Source: Vulgatibacter incomptus (lineage in GTDB: Bacteria; Myxococcota; Myxococcia; Myxococcales; Vulgatibacteraceae). Taken from it: a stretch of DNA of 64,000 nt. Positions 53,456 through 64,000 of this stretch are shown here, piece after piece; within the stretch, counting starts at the first letter, position 1, and every line of letters begins with the position of its first letter. Under the pieces are notes generated by a model that worked only from the letters and a program-made list of their open reading frames with translations, had not been told where the DNA came from and ran no database searches. The stretch lies in the NCBI RefSeq assembly GCF_001263175.1, contig NZ_CP012332.1:4236220-4300219 (forward strand), read 5' to 3'. The position numbers and the translations under genes were made by a program.

Positions 53456-53459
<4 letters not shown>
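51885..53459 (+). CDS. malQ: 4-alpha-glucanotransferase (amylomaltase)
   Basis: 524 residues from a GTG at 51885. SGILLHPTSLPGPHGCGDLG opens the GH77 fold. Catalytic elements are AIRLDHFIGF (nucleophile Asp), MIAEDLGAVTP (acid/base Glu) and YTGTHDNDTTVGW (third Asp). The enzyme transfers maltodextrin segments between chains in the cytoplasm. Its stop overlaps the start of the treS-maltokinase gene (ATGA), which links it to trehalose/maltose/alpha-glucan metabolism. Length is typical for bacterial MalQ of the Thermus type. Confidence 0.93.
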
Positions 53460-56785
<3,326 letters not shown>

Positions 56786-57444: not shown

Positions 57445-58053
57445 ATGAGCTTGGTTCACACTGTCGTCGGAGCCGTCGTGGCCTTTGCGGCCCAAGCGGC
57501 GATCGCCGCCCCTCCAGACGACGTCAGCACCAGAAGCGCGGATGCTCCTTCCGAGGCGGCGAGCGTTCTAGAGGGATTCCAGAACGCTCGCTGGGGCATG
57601 ACGAAGGCAGACATCAAGGCACTGTACCCGGCGTCGGCTGAACCGTTCGATGACCTTCTCGCCACCCGCGTAGACGTAGGAGGAACTACGGTAAAGGTCG
57701 GGTTCGAGTTCGTCGACGGCAGGCTCGAGGGGGTGGTCATCCTCTTTTTTGGGCACGAGGAAGGGCATCCTGCACGCCGATGCGCCCGAGTAAAGAACCA
57801 GATCGACGAGATATCTGGCAAGCCGAGCGAGAGTCCAGAGTCGAAGGAGCATCTCGATGCGCTTCTAGCGCGCTTGCAGACCAATTACACGATGGAATGG
57901 ATCTTCCCGAAGACAGCCATCGAGCTGAAATGCTTGGGCGATGGCTCTGACGACCTCACGGTGAGCCTTCGGTACAACAGCAGGAAGCACCATGACATGC
58001 GTAAAGCACAATGGGATGCCGCCATGCGAGCCGGTGCAGGGAACGATCCGTAG
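57445..58053 (+). CDS. Exported protein of unknown function
   Basis: 202 residues from the ATG at 57445 with GGGGAA upstream. The signal peptide is HTVVGAVVAFAAQAAIAAP. ARWGMTKADIKALYP resembles the WGMs-K-xE-V start seen in several small periplasmic families, followed by strands (VGGTTVKVGFEFVDGRLEGVVILFF) and a helix (EHLDALLARLQTNYTMEWIFP). A Cys at about residue 112 and another near 171 could form a disulfide. No family is assigned. Codon use is like the neighbouring lipoprotein gene and unlike the flanks. Confidence 0.6.
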   Translation: MSLVHTVVGAVVAFAAQAAIAAPPDDVSTRSADAPSEAASVLEGFQNARWGMTKADIKALYPASAEPFDDLLATRVDVGGTTVKVGFEFVDGRLEGVVILFFGHEEGHPARRCARVKNQIDEISGKPSESPESKEHLDALLARLQTNYTMEWIFPKTAIELKCLGDGSDDLTVSLRYNSRKHHDMRKAQWDAAMRAGAGNDP

Positions 58054-58075: not shown

Positions 58076-59194
58076 TTATTCGGGGATCGGCAGCGATACG
58101 ACGAAGCGCGTTCCGACGCCCACCTCGCTCGTCGCGTCGATGCTGCCGCCGAGCTCTTCGACGATCTGACGGGAGATCGCGAGGCCCAGGCCGGTGCCGC
58201 CGCTCGGCTTGGTGGTGAAGAAGGGATCGAAGACCCGCGCCAGCACGTCCTTGGGCATCCCCGGGCCGTTGTCCTCGACCACGAGCCGGTAGGCGTCGTC
58301 TCGGGCGTACTGGAGGATCTTCACCTGGTTCGTTGCGCGGAGCGCCGGATCCATGGCCTCCACCGCGTTGATCACGAGGTTGAGGACCACCTGGCCCAGC
58401 TTGGTGCGAGAGCCCCGAATCGGCTGCAGCCGCGCGAGATCCAGCTCGAGCCGTGCCACCCGCTGCACGCGCCCGCGCAGGGAGCGAACGGCGAGCCCCA
58501 CGACCTCCTCGAGGTCGACGAGGCCCTCGTCGCTCGCATTCGCGCCGAGCTCCATCGAACGCATGATCTCGATGATCGCCTCGATGGAGCGCGTGCAGTC
58601 CGCCAGCGCCTCGTCCACGTCCGTCAGCTTCTTGGTCAGGCGCGCGTCGATGCCCTCGAGCTTCGACTGGACGTCGCCCACGGCCTGGCGGACGAAGTGG
58701 AGGTTGGCGTCCATGGCGCCCAGGGGGTTGCGGATCTCGTGTGCGATCCCGGCGGAGATCACGCCGAGCGAGTAGAGGCGCTCCGTCGCCGCGAGCCGCG
58801 TCTCCATCTCGACCACCTTGCGGCCGACCAGATAGCGCTCGCGCGCGAGCTGGAGCGAGAGCCGGAGCTCGCGCGTGTCCCAGGGCTTGCGCAGATAGAG
58901 GTGGATCTGCCCCCGGTTGATCGCCTCGATCGCCGCGTTCAGATCCGAGTAGGCGGTGATCATCATCCGGATCGTCTCGGGGAACTCGACCTTGGCGATC
59001 TCCGCCAGGTCGACGCCGGACATTCCGGGCATCCGCTGATCCGTGAGGAGGACGGAGATCTCGCGGCTGCGCAGGATCTCGAGGGCCGCCGGGCCGCTGT
59101 TCGCGGTGAGGATCGGCAGGACGCCCTCGAGCGCCGACTCGAAGATCACCAGGTTCGCCTGGTCGTCGTCGACGTAGAGAATCGGGGCGCTCAT
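58076..59194 (-). CDS. Receiver-histidine kinase protein, PhcR-like layout
   Basis: 372 residues from the ATG at 59194, with GGAGG upstream and a 4-base overlap with the end of the sensor kinase gene. The N-terminal receiver has YVDDD, LLTDQRMPGMSG (D52) and LRKP (K103). A short helical linker leads to a histidine kinase: SAGIAHEIRNPLGA (H152), NLVINAVEAMDP, DNGPGMP and GGTGLGLAISRQIVEEL. There is no membrane segment or DNA-binding domain. A response regulator with a kinase as output is the layout of Ralstonia PhcR. It probably takes phosphate from the preceding sensor and passes a signal on by H152. Last gene of the operon. Confidence 0.8.
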   Translation of the reverse strand: MSAPILYVDDDQANLVIFESALEGVLPILTANSGPAALEILRSREISVLLTDQRMPGMSGVDLAEIAKVEFPETIRMMITAYSDLNAAIEAINRGQIHLYLRKPWDTRELRLSLQLARERYLVGRKVVEMETRLAATERLYSLGVISAGIAHEIRNPLGAMDANLHFVRQAVGDVQSKLEGIDARLTKKLTDVDEALADCTRSIEAIIEIMRSMELGANASDEGLVDLEEVVGLAVRSLRGRVQRVARLELDLARLQPIRGSRTKLGQVVLNLVINAVEAMDPALRATNQVKILQYARDDAYRLVVEDNGPGMPKDVLARVFDPFFTTKPSGGTGLGLAISRQIVEELGGSIDATSEVGVGTRFVVSLPIPE

Positions 59195-61710
59195 TCTGCC
59201 TCCTCCGCCGGGAGCTCGACATGGAAGCGGGCACCGCCGCCCGGCCGCCCCTCGTATCGGAGATCCCCGCCGTAGCGCGTGGTGATCTTCCTCGAGAGGT
59301 ACAGGCCCAAGCCCGTGCCGATTCCAGGCTCCCGGGTGGTGAAGAAGGGATCGAAGATCCGCTCTGCGACCCCGGCCGGGATCCCGGGGCCGTCGTCCTC
59401 TACCACGACTCGAACGTTCGCGCCGGCGTCGGCGACGTGGACCCATACGTTCCGTGCCGTCGAGCGAAGCGCGTTGTCGATCAGGTTCAAGAACACCTGG
59501 TTCAACTCTCCCGCCGAGGCGATCACCGGTCGGCTCGACTCGTAGCGACGGTGGACTTCGATCCCGTTGAGCCGATGCTCGAGGAGGCGGACGGTTGCGT
59601 CGAGACCGGATCGAAGGTCGCAGGGACGAGGTCGATCCTGCTCGCCCGGATGGGAGTGGTCAAGGAGCGCGGCGCTGATCGCGTCGATCCGGCTCCCGGC
59701 CTCCTCGATCACCTCCAGCACGCGCCTCGTCGAGGGCTCGAGGTTCTGGCGCTCCAGGAGGGCACGAGCGCCGTTCACCACGGCGTTCACGGGGTTGCGC
59801 ACCTCGTGGCCGATCCCCGCCGCGAGCGTACCCACTGCGGCGAGCTTCGCCTGGGCGGCGAGGGTGAGCCCCAGGGAGCGGAGGCGGAGCTGCGCCCGCA
59901 CCCGGGCGATCAGCACACGCGGATGGATCGGCTTCGTCACGAAGTCGTCCGCGCCGTGGGCGTAGCCCTCGAGGACCGCTTCCGAGCCGCTGCGGGCGGT
60001 GAGGAGGATCACCGGGATGTTCTGGAGCGCAGGGTCCGCCTTGAGGGACGCGCAGAGCGCCGTGCCCGTGAGCCGCGGCATCATCACGTCCGAGATCACG
60101 AGGTCCGGCCGGCTCGAGCGCACGAGCTCGAGGCCCGCCACGCCGTCGTTCGCGACCTCCACGTCAAACGAAGGCGCGAGGATCCGCTGGACCATCTCGC
60201 GGATCTCGTCGTTGTCCTCGACGAGCACGAGCCTCGGGCGGCGGCCGTCCTCCAGCCGAATCGGAGCGGCTTCCGGCGCAGGGCCCGCCTCCGGGAGCGT
60301 CGGCTCGGAACCGGGCGGTAGCTGCATGTCGCCCGCGCGACGCCCGTCGGCGACGTCGACCGCGACCTGCCTCCGCTCGACCACCTCGGGACGGAAGTGC
60401 TCCCTGCCGAGGAGGAGGGTCATCGTGAAAGTGGTCCCCTCGCCGGAACCGCCGGAGATCTCGAGCCGGCCGCCGTGGAGCTCCACGAGCTGACGGGCCA
60501 GCGAGAGGCCGATCCCGGCGCCGCCCTGGACGCGATGGTTCCCGCCGGACTCGGATCGGAAGAAGCGCTCGAAGATCCGCTCCCGATCCGCCTCGGGGAT
60601 CCCCGGGCCGGAGTCGGTGACGCTCACGGTCGCCTCGGTGTCGGAAGAGCTGACCTCCAGTCGGATCCGGCCGCCGTCCGGGGTGAACTTCAGCGCGTTC
60701 CCCAGGAGGTTGGTGAGGACGATCTCGAGTCGGTGGGCGTCGCCGAAGGTGTTCTCGACCTGGGCGGTCGTCAGCTCCAGCTCGATGTCGCGGCTCTCCG
60801 CCGCGGGACGGAACGCCGCGAGGGAGTGTTCCGCGAGGAGGCGGAGGTCGACGGGCGCCACCCGGAGCCGCAGCCGGCCTGCGTCGATGCGCGAGAGATC
60901 GAGGAGATCGTCGATGAGCCGAAGCAGCCGGTAGGCGTTCCGGCGGACCACGTCGAAGAACGAGCGCTCATCGGCCGAGAGCCCGTCTCGGGCCAGGCGA
61001 TCCTCCACGGGAGTGAGGATCAGGGTGAGGGGCGTCCGCAGCTCGTGGGAGATGTTGGTGAAGAACTCGGTCTTGGTCCTGTCGAGCTCCTTGAGCTGCG
61101 AGAGGGCCTCCTCGAGCTGCGCGGACGTGCGGGCCAGGCTCGTGCGTGCCTCGTGCTCGCGGCGCACCTGGCGGTACCTGACTTCATTCGAGGCGACCGC
61201 GATCACCGAGGTGAGCAGGAGGAAATAGAGGTTGTTGAAGAATGCGGGGTCCTCCCAGACCGAGGAACCGGACGCGAGGGCGGGGACCAGCCAGAACGAG
61301 GTGATCGCAAGGCAGGCGAGGGTCGTCTGGAGGATGCGCCAGACGAAGACGATCCCCATGCCCAGGATGCAGAGGTTGAGGCCCGCGTAGTAGGGCGACG
61401 AGAAGCCTTCGAGGCGGCCGATCATGGCCGCAATCGCGAGCGAGCCGATCAGCGCGGGGAGCAGCCCCAGCGGAAAGGTGACTCGCTCGTCGCGGACGAC
61501 GTAGGTGAGGCCGAGCACCACGAGCGAGCCGGCAGCCGCCGCGACGCGAAGGGTGAAGAAGGGCTGGACCAGCTCGGGGTTCGTGAGCCAGTCGAGGACC
61601 ACGCCCGCCGGCATCAAGACCGCGACGAGGAGCGCGGCGAGCCTGGCAGCAACGAGGTTCCGCTCGGCGAGGTGGGCGCGAAACTCCGAAATCGTCGTCG
61701 TCCGACTCAA
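59191..61710 (-). CDS. Membrane hybrid sensor kinase with HK-REC-HK architecture
   Basis: 839 residues from a TTG at 61710. Six hydrophobic segments fill residues 18-175 (AARLAALLVAVLMPAGVVL, LGLLPALIGSLAIAAMIG, LCILGMGIVFVWRIL, LYFLLLTSVIAVAS among them) with short loops, so the signal is likely sensed in or near the membrane. The first kinase has TNISHELRTPLTLI (H222), LLGNALKFTPDGG and GGAGIGLSLARQL. The receiver has VLVEDND, VISDVMMP (D541) and VTKPI (K593). A second kinase follows with GIGHEVRNPVNAV (H635), DNALRSTARN, DGPGIPAG and GTGLGLYLSRKI. Two kinases around one receiver is unusual. PhcS-like by position; a general stress sensor is the alternative. Confidence 0.82.
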   Translation of the reverse strand: MSRTTTISEFRAHLAERNLVAARLAALLVAVLMPAGVVLDWLTNPELVQPFFTLRVAAAAGSLVVLGLTYVVRDERVTFPLGLLPALIGSLAIAAMIGRLEGFSSPYYAGLNLCILGMGIVFVWRILQTTLACLAITSFWLVPALASGSSVWEDPAFFNNLYFLLLTSVIAVASNEVRYRQVRREHEARTSLARTSAQLEEALSQLKELDRTKTEFFTNISHELRTPLTLILTPVEDRLARDGLSADERSFFDVVRRNAYRLLRLIDDLLDLSRIDAGRLRLRVAPVDLRLLAEHSLAAFRPAAESRDIELELTTAQVENTFGDAHRLEIVLTNLLGNALKFTPDGGRIRLEVSSSDTEATVSVTDSGPGIPEADRERIFERFFRSESGGNHRVQGGAGIGLSLARQLVELHGGRLEISGGSGEGTTFTMTLLLGREHFRPEVVERRQVAVDVADGRRAGDMQLPPGSEPTLPEAGPAPEAAPIRLEDGRRPRLVLVEDNDEIREMVQRILAPSFDVEVANDGVAGLELVRSSRPDLVISDVMMPRLTGTALCASLKADPALQNIPVILLTARSGSEAVLEGYAHGADDFVTKPIHPRVLIARVRAQLRLRSLGLTLAAQAKLAAVGTLAAGIGHEVRNPVNAVVNGARALLERQNLEPSTRRVLEVIEEAGSRIDAISAALLDHSHPGEQDRPRPCDLRSGLDATVRLLEHRLNGIEVHRRYESSRPVIASAGELNQVFLNLIDNALRSTARNVWVHVADAGANVRVVVEDDGPGIPAGVAERIFDPFFTTREPGIGTGLGLYLSRKITTRYGGDLRYEGRPGGGARFHVELPAEEAE

Positions 61711-61750
61711 GCTGCGCCCACCGTTCGAACACGCTCTTTCGAGCGAATCT

Positions 61751-63220
61751 TCATCTCTCGACGAAGAGGAAGAGGTTTACGCCGCTCGGCTCGGCGTCCA
61801 CACGGACCTGCCGCGGTGCCGGCGAGAGGCCCTCCGCCAGCCGCAGGAGCTCCTCGGGCGTGCGGTGGATCAGGAACCACTCGGAGAAATACTCCATCGT
61901 CCAGCGGGATGGGTTGTGATGGGCGACGTTGCCGACCGCGAGGCGGCCACCGTCCGCGAGGGCGCCGTAGAGGATCGAGATCAAGGCGCGGGAGGTGCGC
62001 TCGTTCAAGTAATCGAAGAGGCCGGCGCTGTAGATGAGCTCCCTCTCTCCTAACGCCTCTCCGAGAGCCTGGGCGGTGAGGAGCCTCCGGACCGACTCGC
62101 GGATCACCTGGACGCGGGCGTTGGTCGCGCGGGCCAGGGGCGCCAGCGTCTTCTCGCAGTAGGCGATCGAGCGATCCTCCTGATCCACCAGCGCGACATC
62201 GAGGCGGGCGCCGAGCTCCGGGCTCTTGTTGAGGAGCGCCGCGATCTCCCTAGCGGGCCCGCAGCCGATGCTGGCGATCCGGATGCGGTCGCGATCCGCC
62301 CGCTCGATCCGCTCGCGGATCATCGCTCCCAGGAACTCGATGCGGTTGATGTTCGCGATCGCCGCTTCTTCGTTGGTGGAGTAGAGGTTGAGCGCCTTGC
62401 CAAAGAGCGTGCTCCCCTCGCGGTGATCGCGATAGAGCATGTTCATCATCTCGTAGTCGCCCGCGTAGCCGAGAGGCTTCTCCAGCGCGCGCCTCATGAA
62501 GGGCGATTCGGCGAAGAGCGGGGCGACGTGGCGCTTGAGGTAGGCGCGATGGAGCTGATGCTCCTCGTCCGAGAACCCGCCGACGAGCTCGTTCAGCGTG
62601 GTGCGCGCCGCCACCATCTCCTTCACGATCCACGGGTGGATCGCGTCGAGGATCTGCGCCTCGACTTCACGACGAGTGAAATCGTCCTCGGCCAACAGCG
62701 CCTCTTCCTCCCGACCGAGGAAGTCGCGGAGCACCTCGAGGCCGCTGAGGAGGTCCGCCGCCCATGCCTTGAACGCGCTCCCGACGCTCGCGTTGCGCGC
62801 GCGGGCCTGACCCAACGCCTGGAGCCGCTGGTCGAAGCTGCGCCGCGCGCCCCGACGGTGGAGCTCGGCCAGGTCGAGGCCGTCGCCCTCGAGCTCGATC
62901 CCGACCACGATTCCTTCGTCCGACTCGCCGAGACGTCGGACCGTGCCGCTCCCGCGAAAGAGGCTACGCTCGTCCGCGCGGACCTCCAGGGTCTCGAGCC
63001 GGTCGCCAGGAAAGAGGGTCGAGCCGGCGTCGATCGGCAGCTCGATCGCCAGGCCATGGAGGGATAGGTCCCGGACGCGCGCGGTGATCTCGCCAAGGCT
63101 CGTGTGCTCCAGCGTCGCGGTCACTTCCCCGAGCGAGGCCATGTCCACGGCGATCCGGCGGGCGCGGAGGCGGGGCGTGCGATCGGAGCGGGAAGTGGGG
63201 GCAGGGGCGAGTTTTCTCAC
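61751..63220 (-). CDS. PilZ domain fused to a PhcB-like SAM-dependent methyltransferase
   Basis: 489 residues from a GTG at 63220 (GGAGC upstream). The first about 115 residues are a PilZ domain with both c-di-GMP binding elements: R17-x3-R21 and DLSLHG (51-56). A helical middle (about 120-250) leads to a class I methyltransferase with IASIGCGPAREIA (319-325) and VALVDQED for SAM. GYAGDYEMMN and STNEEAAIANINRIEFLG are typical, from memory, of proteins annotated as 3-hydroxypalmitic acid methyl ester synthases (PhcB group). First gene of an operon with two kinases. A free fatty acid or other carboxyl as methyl acceptor is inference. Confidence 0.7.
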   Translation of the reverse strand: MRKLAPAPTSRSDRTPRLRARRIAVDMASLGEVTATLEHTSLGEITARVRDLSLHGLAIELPIDAGSTLFPGDRLETLEVRADERSLFRGSGTVRRLGESDEGIVVGIELEGDGLDLAELHRRGARRSFDQRLQALGQARARNASVGSAFKAWAADLLSGLEVLRDFLGREEEALLAEDDFTRREVEAQILDAIHPWIVKEMVAARTTLNELVGGFSDEEHQLHRAYLKRHVAPLFAESPFMRRALEKPLGYAGDYEMMNMLYRDHREGSTLFGKALNLYSTNEEAAIANINRIEFLGAMIRERIERADRDRIRIASIGCGPAREIAALLNKSPELGARLDVALVDQEDRSIAYCEKTLAPLARATNARVQVIRESVRRLLTAQALGEALGERELIYSAGLFDYLNERTSRALISILYGALADGGRLAVGNVAHHNPSRWTMEYFSEWFLIHRTPEELLRLAEGLSPAPRQVRVDAEPSGVNLFLFVER

Positions 63221-63383: not shown

Positions 63384-63406
63384 TTGATTGTGATTCTCAA
63401 AATTGA
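63384..63406. promoter_or_regulatory. Possible Fur-type operator upstream of the iron permease gene
   Basis: TTGATTGTGATTCTCAAAATTGA is the most AT-rich stretch of this intergenic region and has a TGATTCTCA core resembling a Fur box, 33 bases before the start of the FTR1-type gene. The match to the 19-base consensus is only partial. Confidence 0.3.
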
Positions 63407-63438
63407 AGTGCGGGCGGGCCGGTGTTAGAACGCGGCCC

Positions 63439-64000
63439 GTGAGAACGCTCGCGATCGTCCCGCTGCTGCTGGTCTTCCTCGCACCCGCCATTTCCACCGC
63501 CGCGCCGCGCGAGGAGGACTGGCACCGCCTGATCGGCATCCTCCAGTACCTGGAGGCCGATTACCCCCTGGCCGTCGAGTCCCGTTCGGATTTCGAGCTG
63601 GCCGAGCAGCGCTCCTTCATCGCCGAGGCGCTCGCTGGCGCCAGGGACCTGGGAGCGTCCGCGGAGCCCGCGGTAGCGAAGCTCGAGACCCTGAAGGAGC
63701 GGGTGGACCGGGGCGAGGCGCCGGAGGAGGTCCGCGAGGGCTGCCAGGCGCTGATCGAGGAGCTGGTCCGGCTCGGCGGGCTCGTCCGCAGCCCCCGCCA
63801 TCCGCCCGACCTGGAGCGGGGGAGGGCGCTCTTCGCCGAGAGCTGCGCCGCCTGCCACGGCGCCGAAGGCAGGGGCGACACCCCCGTCGCGGCCACGATG
63901 AACCCGCCTCCGGCGAGCTTCCACGATCCGGAGGTGATGGGGCCGCTCTCTCCCTACAAGGCGTTCAACACCATCAGCTTCGGCGTGACCGGGACCGCGA
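63439..64000 (+). CDS. Cytochrome c/FTR1-type iron permease, N-terminal part (cut by window end)
   Basis: 187 codons are visible from a GTG at 63439. A signal peptide (TLAIVPLLLVFLAPAISTA) is followed by a helical periplasmic region with ILQYLEADYPLAVES and FELAEQRSFIAEAL, and then a class I cytochrome c domain with ESCAACHGAEGRGD (haem-binding CAACH) and PPASFHDPEVMGPLSPYKAFN. This order is typical of bacterial FTR1 iron permeases that carry a cytochrome c in front of the membrane part; the REGLE-bearing permease itself would lie beyond base 64000. A plain exported cytochrome c is the alternative. Confidence 0.7.
   Translation, partial: MRTLAIVPLLLVFLAPAISTAAPREEDWHRLIGILQYLEADYPLAVESRSDFELAEQRSFIAEALAGARDLGASAEPAVAKLETLKERVDRGEAPEEVREGCQALIEELVRLGGLVRSPRHPPDLERGRALFAESCAACHGAEGRGDTPVAATMNPPPASFHDPEVMGPLSPYKAFNTISFGVTGTA

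Follow-up and report, generated by a model that had tools for sequence, protein, structure and literature searches.

A Phc-related operon in Vulgatibacter incomptus encoding a methyltransferase with a putative c-di-GMP-binding PilZ domain

INTRODUCTION

The phcBSRQ systems of Ralstonia and Cupriavidus use methyl 3-hydroxypalmitate or 3-hydroxymyristate as their signal. Phc signaling has been described in Ralstonia, Cupriavidus, and Paraburkholderia, and our full-text search for PhcB combined with Myxococcus-related words yielded two papers, neither of which concerns such a system, judging by titles and abstracts. In the Ralstonia solanacearum complex, PhcB, PhcR, and PhcQ are 464 to 468, 368 to 374, and 336 to 337 aa long, respectively (PMC8578825). 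An R22C substitution in PhcB, located outside the methyltransferase domain, alters the synthesis of the signal molecule (PMC6989110).

Two other described systems bear on the locus reported here. In Leptospira, LvrA phosphorylates LvrB, and phosphorylation of the REC domain of LvrB turns on its kinase (PMC5863495, PMC13269768); LvrA is a cytosolic protein with a PAS domain and no transmembrane (TM) segments (PMC5863495). In Myxococcus xanthus, PilZ-type c-di-GMP receptors, including PixA, PixB, and PlpA, have been studied, together with the conserved residues of their motif (PMC8316039).

RESULTS

A three-gene operon homologous to phcB, phcS, and phcR

The window analyzed here is a stretch of 64,000 nucleotides from the V. 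incomptus genome, which is a single contig of 4,350,553 bases. The open reading frame list and the coordinates confirmed three minus-strand genes at positions 58076-63220, with a gap of 40 bases between genes 1 and 2 (61711-61750) and an overlap of 4 bases between genes 2 and 3 (59191-59194):

61751..63220, minus strand: gene 1, a PilZ-methyltransferase homologous to PhcB (489 aa; GTG start, with GGAG 7 bases upstream)
61754..62638, minus strand: methyltransferase core of gene 1, residues 195-489 (KPLGYAGDYE, SIGCGPAREI, AGLFDYL), with columns invariant in PhcB and both types of relatives described below
59191..61710, minus strand: gene 2, a 6TM-HK-REC-HK hybrid sensor kinase (839 aa; TTG start; Pfam and NCBIfam matches)
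61141..61710, minus strand: six-TM sensor domain of gene 2, homologous to the PhcS sensor (PhcS sensor profile and hhalign)
58076..59194, minus strand: gene 3, a REC-HisKA-HATPase protein homologous to PhcR, with an LvrB-like architecture (372 aa; ATG at 59194)

The operon is flanked by a convergent gene (57445-58053, plus strand) and a divergent frame starting at 63403 (plus strand). The divergent frame (63403-64000) contains the c-type cytochrome motif CAACH and runs past the window end. A frame at 53456-56785 (1109 aa) has an alpha-amylase-type domain and a maltokinase N-cap, and probably encodes a trehalose synthase-maltokinase fusion.

Searches of the whole genome with Phc proteins of Ralstonia pickettii and Cupriavidus linked each of the three genes to its Phc counterpart. 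Gene 1 was the sole match to a PhcB query (2.6e-40), with about 33% identity over the methyltransferase core, and gene 2 was the sole match to a PhcS membrane-domain profile (4e-18). A PhcR query found gene 3 first, over its full length, at 109 bits, with the next match at 66 bits. These sole or best reverse matches rule out an unrelated methyltransferase lying beside a two-component system. When compared by hhalign, the myxobacterial and PhcS membrane domains matched at 99.6%, whereas 31 unrelated membrane segments reached at most 1.2%, which rules out a chance likeness of the membrane domains. Judged by sequence, genes 1 to 3 are thus homologues of PhcB, PhcS (in its sensor domain), and PhcR, in the B-S-R order.

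For comparison, we used a reference set of 80 Betaproteobacteria relatives with their flanks, including Cupriavidus necator (L114) and Ralstonia pickettii (L159), both of which have contiguous phcB-S-R-Q genes encoding 463-470, 442, 368, and 335 aa. The homologous methyltransferase, six-TM sensor domain, and REC-kinase occur in the identical order in the window operon, and gene 3, at 372 aa, is close to the 368-374 aa of PhcR in Ralstonia. On the other hand, PhcS has 442 aa, compared with the 839 aa of gene 2, which has an extra REC domain and a second kinase. The phcQ gene, part of the operon in Ralstonia and Cupriavidus, is not found in the window operon, where gene 3 is followed by a gene on the opposite strand (57445-58053) that has no Pfam match. 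Because the window operon has no phcQ and the product of its methyltransferase can only be predicted, we treat it as a variant rather than a member of Phc, and we use the label for the likeness. A conjugative plasmid of Paraburkholderia graminis (L077:5437-9812) carries phcB, phcS, a receiver-only gene in the place of phcR, and a phcQ-like gene.

The initial annotation of this DNA had proposed the three-gene layout, a PhcB-type methyltransferase, a REC-kinase as the third member, and an order shared with Ralstonia phcB-phcS-phcR, all of which are borne out by the coordinates, the reverse matches, and the phcBSRQ loci of R. pickettii and Cupriavidus. It had also described gene 2 as a six-TM sensor kinase. 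The kinase and the six hydrophobic segments, whose first residues are 20, 54, 79, 109, 130, and 156, are present, but the description overlooked two further Pfam domains, as the membrane part is followed by HisKA-HATPase, REC, and a second HisKA-HATPase. Phospho-acceptor residues, numbered from the motif starts, are present in gene 2 (H221, D540, and H634) and gene 3 (D51 and H151), and the domain scan found no DNA-binding domain in any of the three proteins.

The best full-length NCBIfam model for gene 2 was LvrA, at 325 bits against a cut-off of 1200; the Lvr family scores (325 versus 1200 bits and 87 versus 500) are far under the cut-offs, and the NCBIfam kinase names LvrA, EspA, and EspC were all rejected as below cut-off. 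Beyond the sensor domain, genes 2 and 3 resemble LvrA and LvrB in having an HK-REC-HK protein adjoining a REC-HK protein, neither with a DNA-binding domain. However, LvrA has a PAS domain and no TM segment, whereas gene 2 has six, and no methyltransferase is mentioned for the Lvr system, unlike the window operon. Given these scores and the TM-free LvrA, we do not claim Lvr membership, and take Lvr by analogy as a possible mechanistic model for genes 2 and 3.

The methyltransferase and the 6TM domain stay paired across the phylum while outputs change

The methyltransferase had a match in 88 of 195 genomes of the phylum, and 40 loci were read at length. Seventeen of them, which we call the HK type, encode a REC-kinase (RK), a PilZ-methyltransferase (MT), and a 6TM-HK-REC-HK protein (HK), in the order RK-MT-HK as far as the contigs reach. 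In another 16 loci, the SpoIIE type, the gene after the methyltransferase encodes a 6TM-SpoIIE protein. The three-gene arrangement thus recurs in relatives and is not due to chance, and the conserved synteny in Myxococcota on which the initial reading depended was found, either as RK-MT-HK or as the methyltransferase with a SpoIIE-type receptor. A third output was seen at L069:7719-10610, where the 6TM protein encoded after the methyltransferase carries an adenylate/guanylate cyclase domain. At L070:7737-10477, a cyclopropane-fatty-acid synthase-type gene, rather than a receptor gene, comes after a distant relative of the methyltransferase.

A 6TM domain lies 6 to 154 bases downstream of the methyltransferase at 41 of the 49 methyltransferase sites. 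Conversely, the methyltransferase precedes 38 of the 41 strong 6TM sites, and two of the other three are at contig ends. The only complete separation of a pair among the strong sites is L164/L165 (G040:C1, 609571 and 643075), where 33 kb separate the methyltransferase from the 6TM-SpoIIE gene, which is on the other strand. The enzyme and the 6TM sensor are therefore kept across relatives while the output domain changes, a pattern that fits, short of proof, a synthase making the ligand of the sensor.

In a tree of the methyltransferases, the HK-type, SpoIIE-type, and PhcB sequences each formed one clade with a support of 100. The window methyltransferase falls inside the tree of the wider family on a long lone branch, and its grouping with PhcB and two further myxobacterial sequences is weak (92/66). 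Since its placement with PhcB (p-AU, 0.125), the HK type (0.162), or the SpoIIE type (0.051) was in no case clearly rejected, we claim no sister group for it. The window operon has the gene order of PhcB but the receptor and the PilZ motif of the HK type, and gene 3 scored 160 bits at best against the HK-type REC-kinase partners versus 122 against PhcR.

The SpoIIE form combines the methyltransferase-6TM pair with Sia-like genes

The SpoIIE form was found at the following 16 loci:

L042, L049, L050, L052-L054, L056, L057, L060, L063-L068, and L076: methyltransferase followed by a 6TM-SpoIIE gene

Genes for a SiaB/slr1658-like kinase and a SiaC/slr1659-like STAS protein are near the methyltransferase in all 16 loci, with SiaA, SiaB, and SiaC profile matches below the curated cut-offs. 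A GGDEF gene is directly downstream in L066, and L049, L052, and L065 have GGDEF domains in the vicinity. SiaABCD of Pseudomonas consists of a SpoIIE phosphatase, a kinase, SiaC, and a diguanylate cyclase. There, the phosphorylation state of SiaC is controlled by SiaA and SiaB, and SiaC in turn activates SiaD, the cyclase (PMC8457831). The SpoIIE phosphatase with SiaB- and SiaC-like genes is thus shared by the loci of the 16 relatives but not by the window, and the SpoIIE-form relatives differ from SiaABCD by a PhcS-type sensor domain and a methyltransferase in the operon. By analogy, c-di-GMP may be an output in the SpoIIE form and an input in the window operon.

Gene 1 carries an intact PilZ motif on a barrel probably shared with PhcB

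The methyltransferase of gene 1 is of the class I SAM type and below the Pfam cut-offs. An AlphaFold2 (AF2) model of the product (pLDDT 89.6) matched solved methyltransferases at Z about 19-20, but these matches span the methyltransferase half, with no PilZ chain listed, and are uninformative on the N-terminal barrel. The methyltransferase family is broad, being also found in cyanobacteria, rhizobia, and a polyketide synthase, so homology cannot reveal the product.

The N-terminal part has a PilZ domain (Pfam PF07238) at 26.1 bits, above the cut-off of 22.5, with the following features:

62885..63130, minus strand: PilZ barrel of six strands, residues 31-112 (Pfam above cut-off; AF2 strands)
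63053..63070, minus strand: DLSLHG, residues 51-56, the PilZ (D/N)xSxxG motif, with D51, S53, and G56 invariant in the window protein and 18 relatives
63155..63181, minus strand: arginine-rich stretch R14-R22, in which R17xxxR21 fits RxxxR and R14, R19, and R22 are invariant in relatives

In the alignment of these 19 HK-type proteins, which are otherwise about 30% identical, D51, S53, G56, R14, R19, and R22 are invariant. The RxxxR spacing is that of R17xxxR21 in the window protein, whereas the relatives keep R14, R19, and R22 with other spacing, and the stretch is a low-confidence region of the AF2 model. Pfam PilZ matched 19 of 19 HK-type methyltransferases, including that of the window, and none of the 16 SpoIIE-type ones. 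It matched none of nine PhcB proteins either, because the 19 matches among 44 proteins in the joint scan were all taken by the HK type.

The AF2 models suggest a different picture for the fold. C. necator PhcB (L114:7506-8894) has an N-terminal domain with a PilZ-like layout at residues 10-85, whose six predicted strands (E10-14, E20-28, E32-37, E49-57, E60-74, and E79-85) have nearly the lengths and loops of those in the window PilZ domain (E33-39, E43-52, E56-61, E74-82, E85-99, and E104-111), with NLQRKS replacing DLSLHG and no c-di-GMP motif. Assigning this domain to PilZ by sequence was rejected as weak, since hhalign gave 22% (E 1e-3), compared with 0.1% for reversed controls, and a general PilZ profile reached 0.2% against PhcB; the claim of PilZ homology therefore rests on the AF2 strand pattern. 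The PilZ-like barrel is thus probably not peculiar to the window synthase but common to PhcB, and the difference between them is the probable c-di-GMP site, with the motif intact in gene 1 and not in PhcB. The initial annotation had pointed to PilZ on the synthase as a link between cell-density signaling and c-di-GMP; the domain score and the motif set gene 1 apart from PhcB, but the barrel probably does not. We think that the barrel is old in the methyltransferase family, and that the HK-type branch either retained or acquired c-di-GMP binding. Position 22 of PhcB in C. necator and R. pickettii, the residue altered by R22C, falls within strand 2 of the predicted barrel.

The genome encodes ten GGDEF domains, so c-di-GMP should be present, and the PilZ domain of gene 1 is predicted from its sequence to bind it. 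Like gene 1, the M. xanthus PilZ receptors have the conserved motif residues, although PMC8316039 does not name a methyltransferase, such as gene 1 encodes, among these receptors.

DISCUSSION

The explanation that we prefer, to which we give an even chance of being right, is that the window operon is a Phc-type cell-to-cell signaling operon with a c-di-GMP input and a fatty-acyl methyl ester signal. The product of the PilZ-methyltransferase would be lipophilic, a methyl ester whose acid is most likely a 3-hydroxy fatty acid, and c-di-GMP on the PilZ domain would raise or lower its synthesis. Once exported, the ester would accumulate with cell density, and the neighboring hybrid kinase would sense it through its 6TM domain. 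Phosphate could then pass from H221 to D540 and reach D51 of the REC-kinase via one or the other kinase core. The REC-kinase would then switch on its own kinase, as LvrB does, and phosphorylate a further regulator. This regulator is proposed to be unlinked because no DNA-binding domain occurs in any of the three proteins.

The same signal-receptor pair could also work with a PilZ domain that does not bind c-di-GMP and serves as a structural or protein-binding barrel, as it probably does in PhcB, making the operon Phc-like without a c-di-GMP input. The predicted PhcB barrel of the same layout suggests that the domain can work motif-less, the PilZ score of gene 1 is modest, and a lack of c-di-GMP binding is reported for some PilZ proteins that do carry the motif, among them M. 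xanthus PlpA (PMC8316039). However, the three motif residues and three arginines stay invariant among proteins that have otherwise diverged widely, and the SpoIIE-type relatives are without a PilZ match. We regard this alternative as somewhat unlikely.

A different reading is that another small molecule or lipid is methylated and the 6TM kinase senses a different cue, perhaps one from the environment or the membrane, so that the operon is a lipid-modification or stress sensor rather than a cell-to-cell signaling system. Relatives of the enzyme do occur outside signaling contexts, and the one at L070 adjoins the cyclopropane-fatty-acid synthase-type gene. This is decidedly unlikely, however, as all three Phc parts are present and in order, and the pairing of the enzyme with the sensor domain outlasts the changes of output. 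That the methyltransferase modifies a protein, e.g., the receptor itself, as CheR adapts chemoreceptors, is very improbable: its tight linkage to a receptor gene and a weak match to the CheR profile (16 bits; cut-off, 27) would agree with it, but the homology to PhcB, an established signal synthase, extends over the whole core, and what the receptors have in common is the membrane domain, whereas no shared adaptation region was seen.

Returning to the signaling operon with a c-di-GMP input, it can tentatively be placed in a wider setting, a possibility that we would not yet call probable. Myxobacteria may have widespread Phc-related modules in which one synthase and 6TM pair is joined to interchangeable outputs, i.e., a phosphorelay, a Sia-like phosphatase switch, or a nucleotide cyclase. 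With c-di-GMP entering as an input through the PilZ domain of the synthase and also serving as an output in the Sia-like form, cell density and c-di-GMP would meet in one circuit. If the preferred reading of the window operon is right, fatty-acyl methyl ester signaling would extend to a phylum of social bacteria, and the enzyme itself would be the point at which a second messenger acts on signal synthesis. There would also be a testable reason for the effect of PhcB R22C, outside the methyltransferase domain, on signal synthesis. Finally, with the receptor domain recognizable by sequence and assignable to its synthase by gene order, signal-receptor partners would become predictable from genomes.
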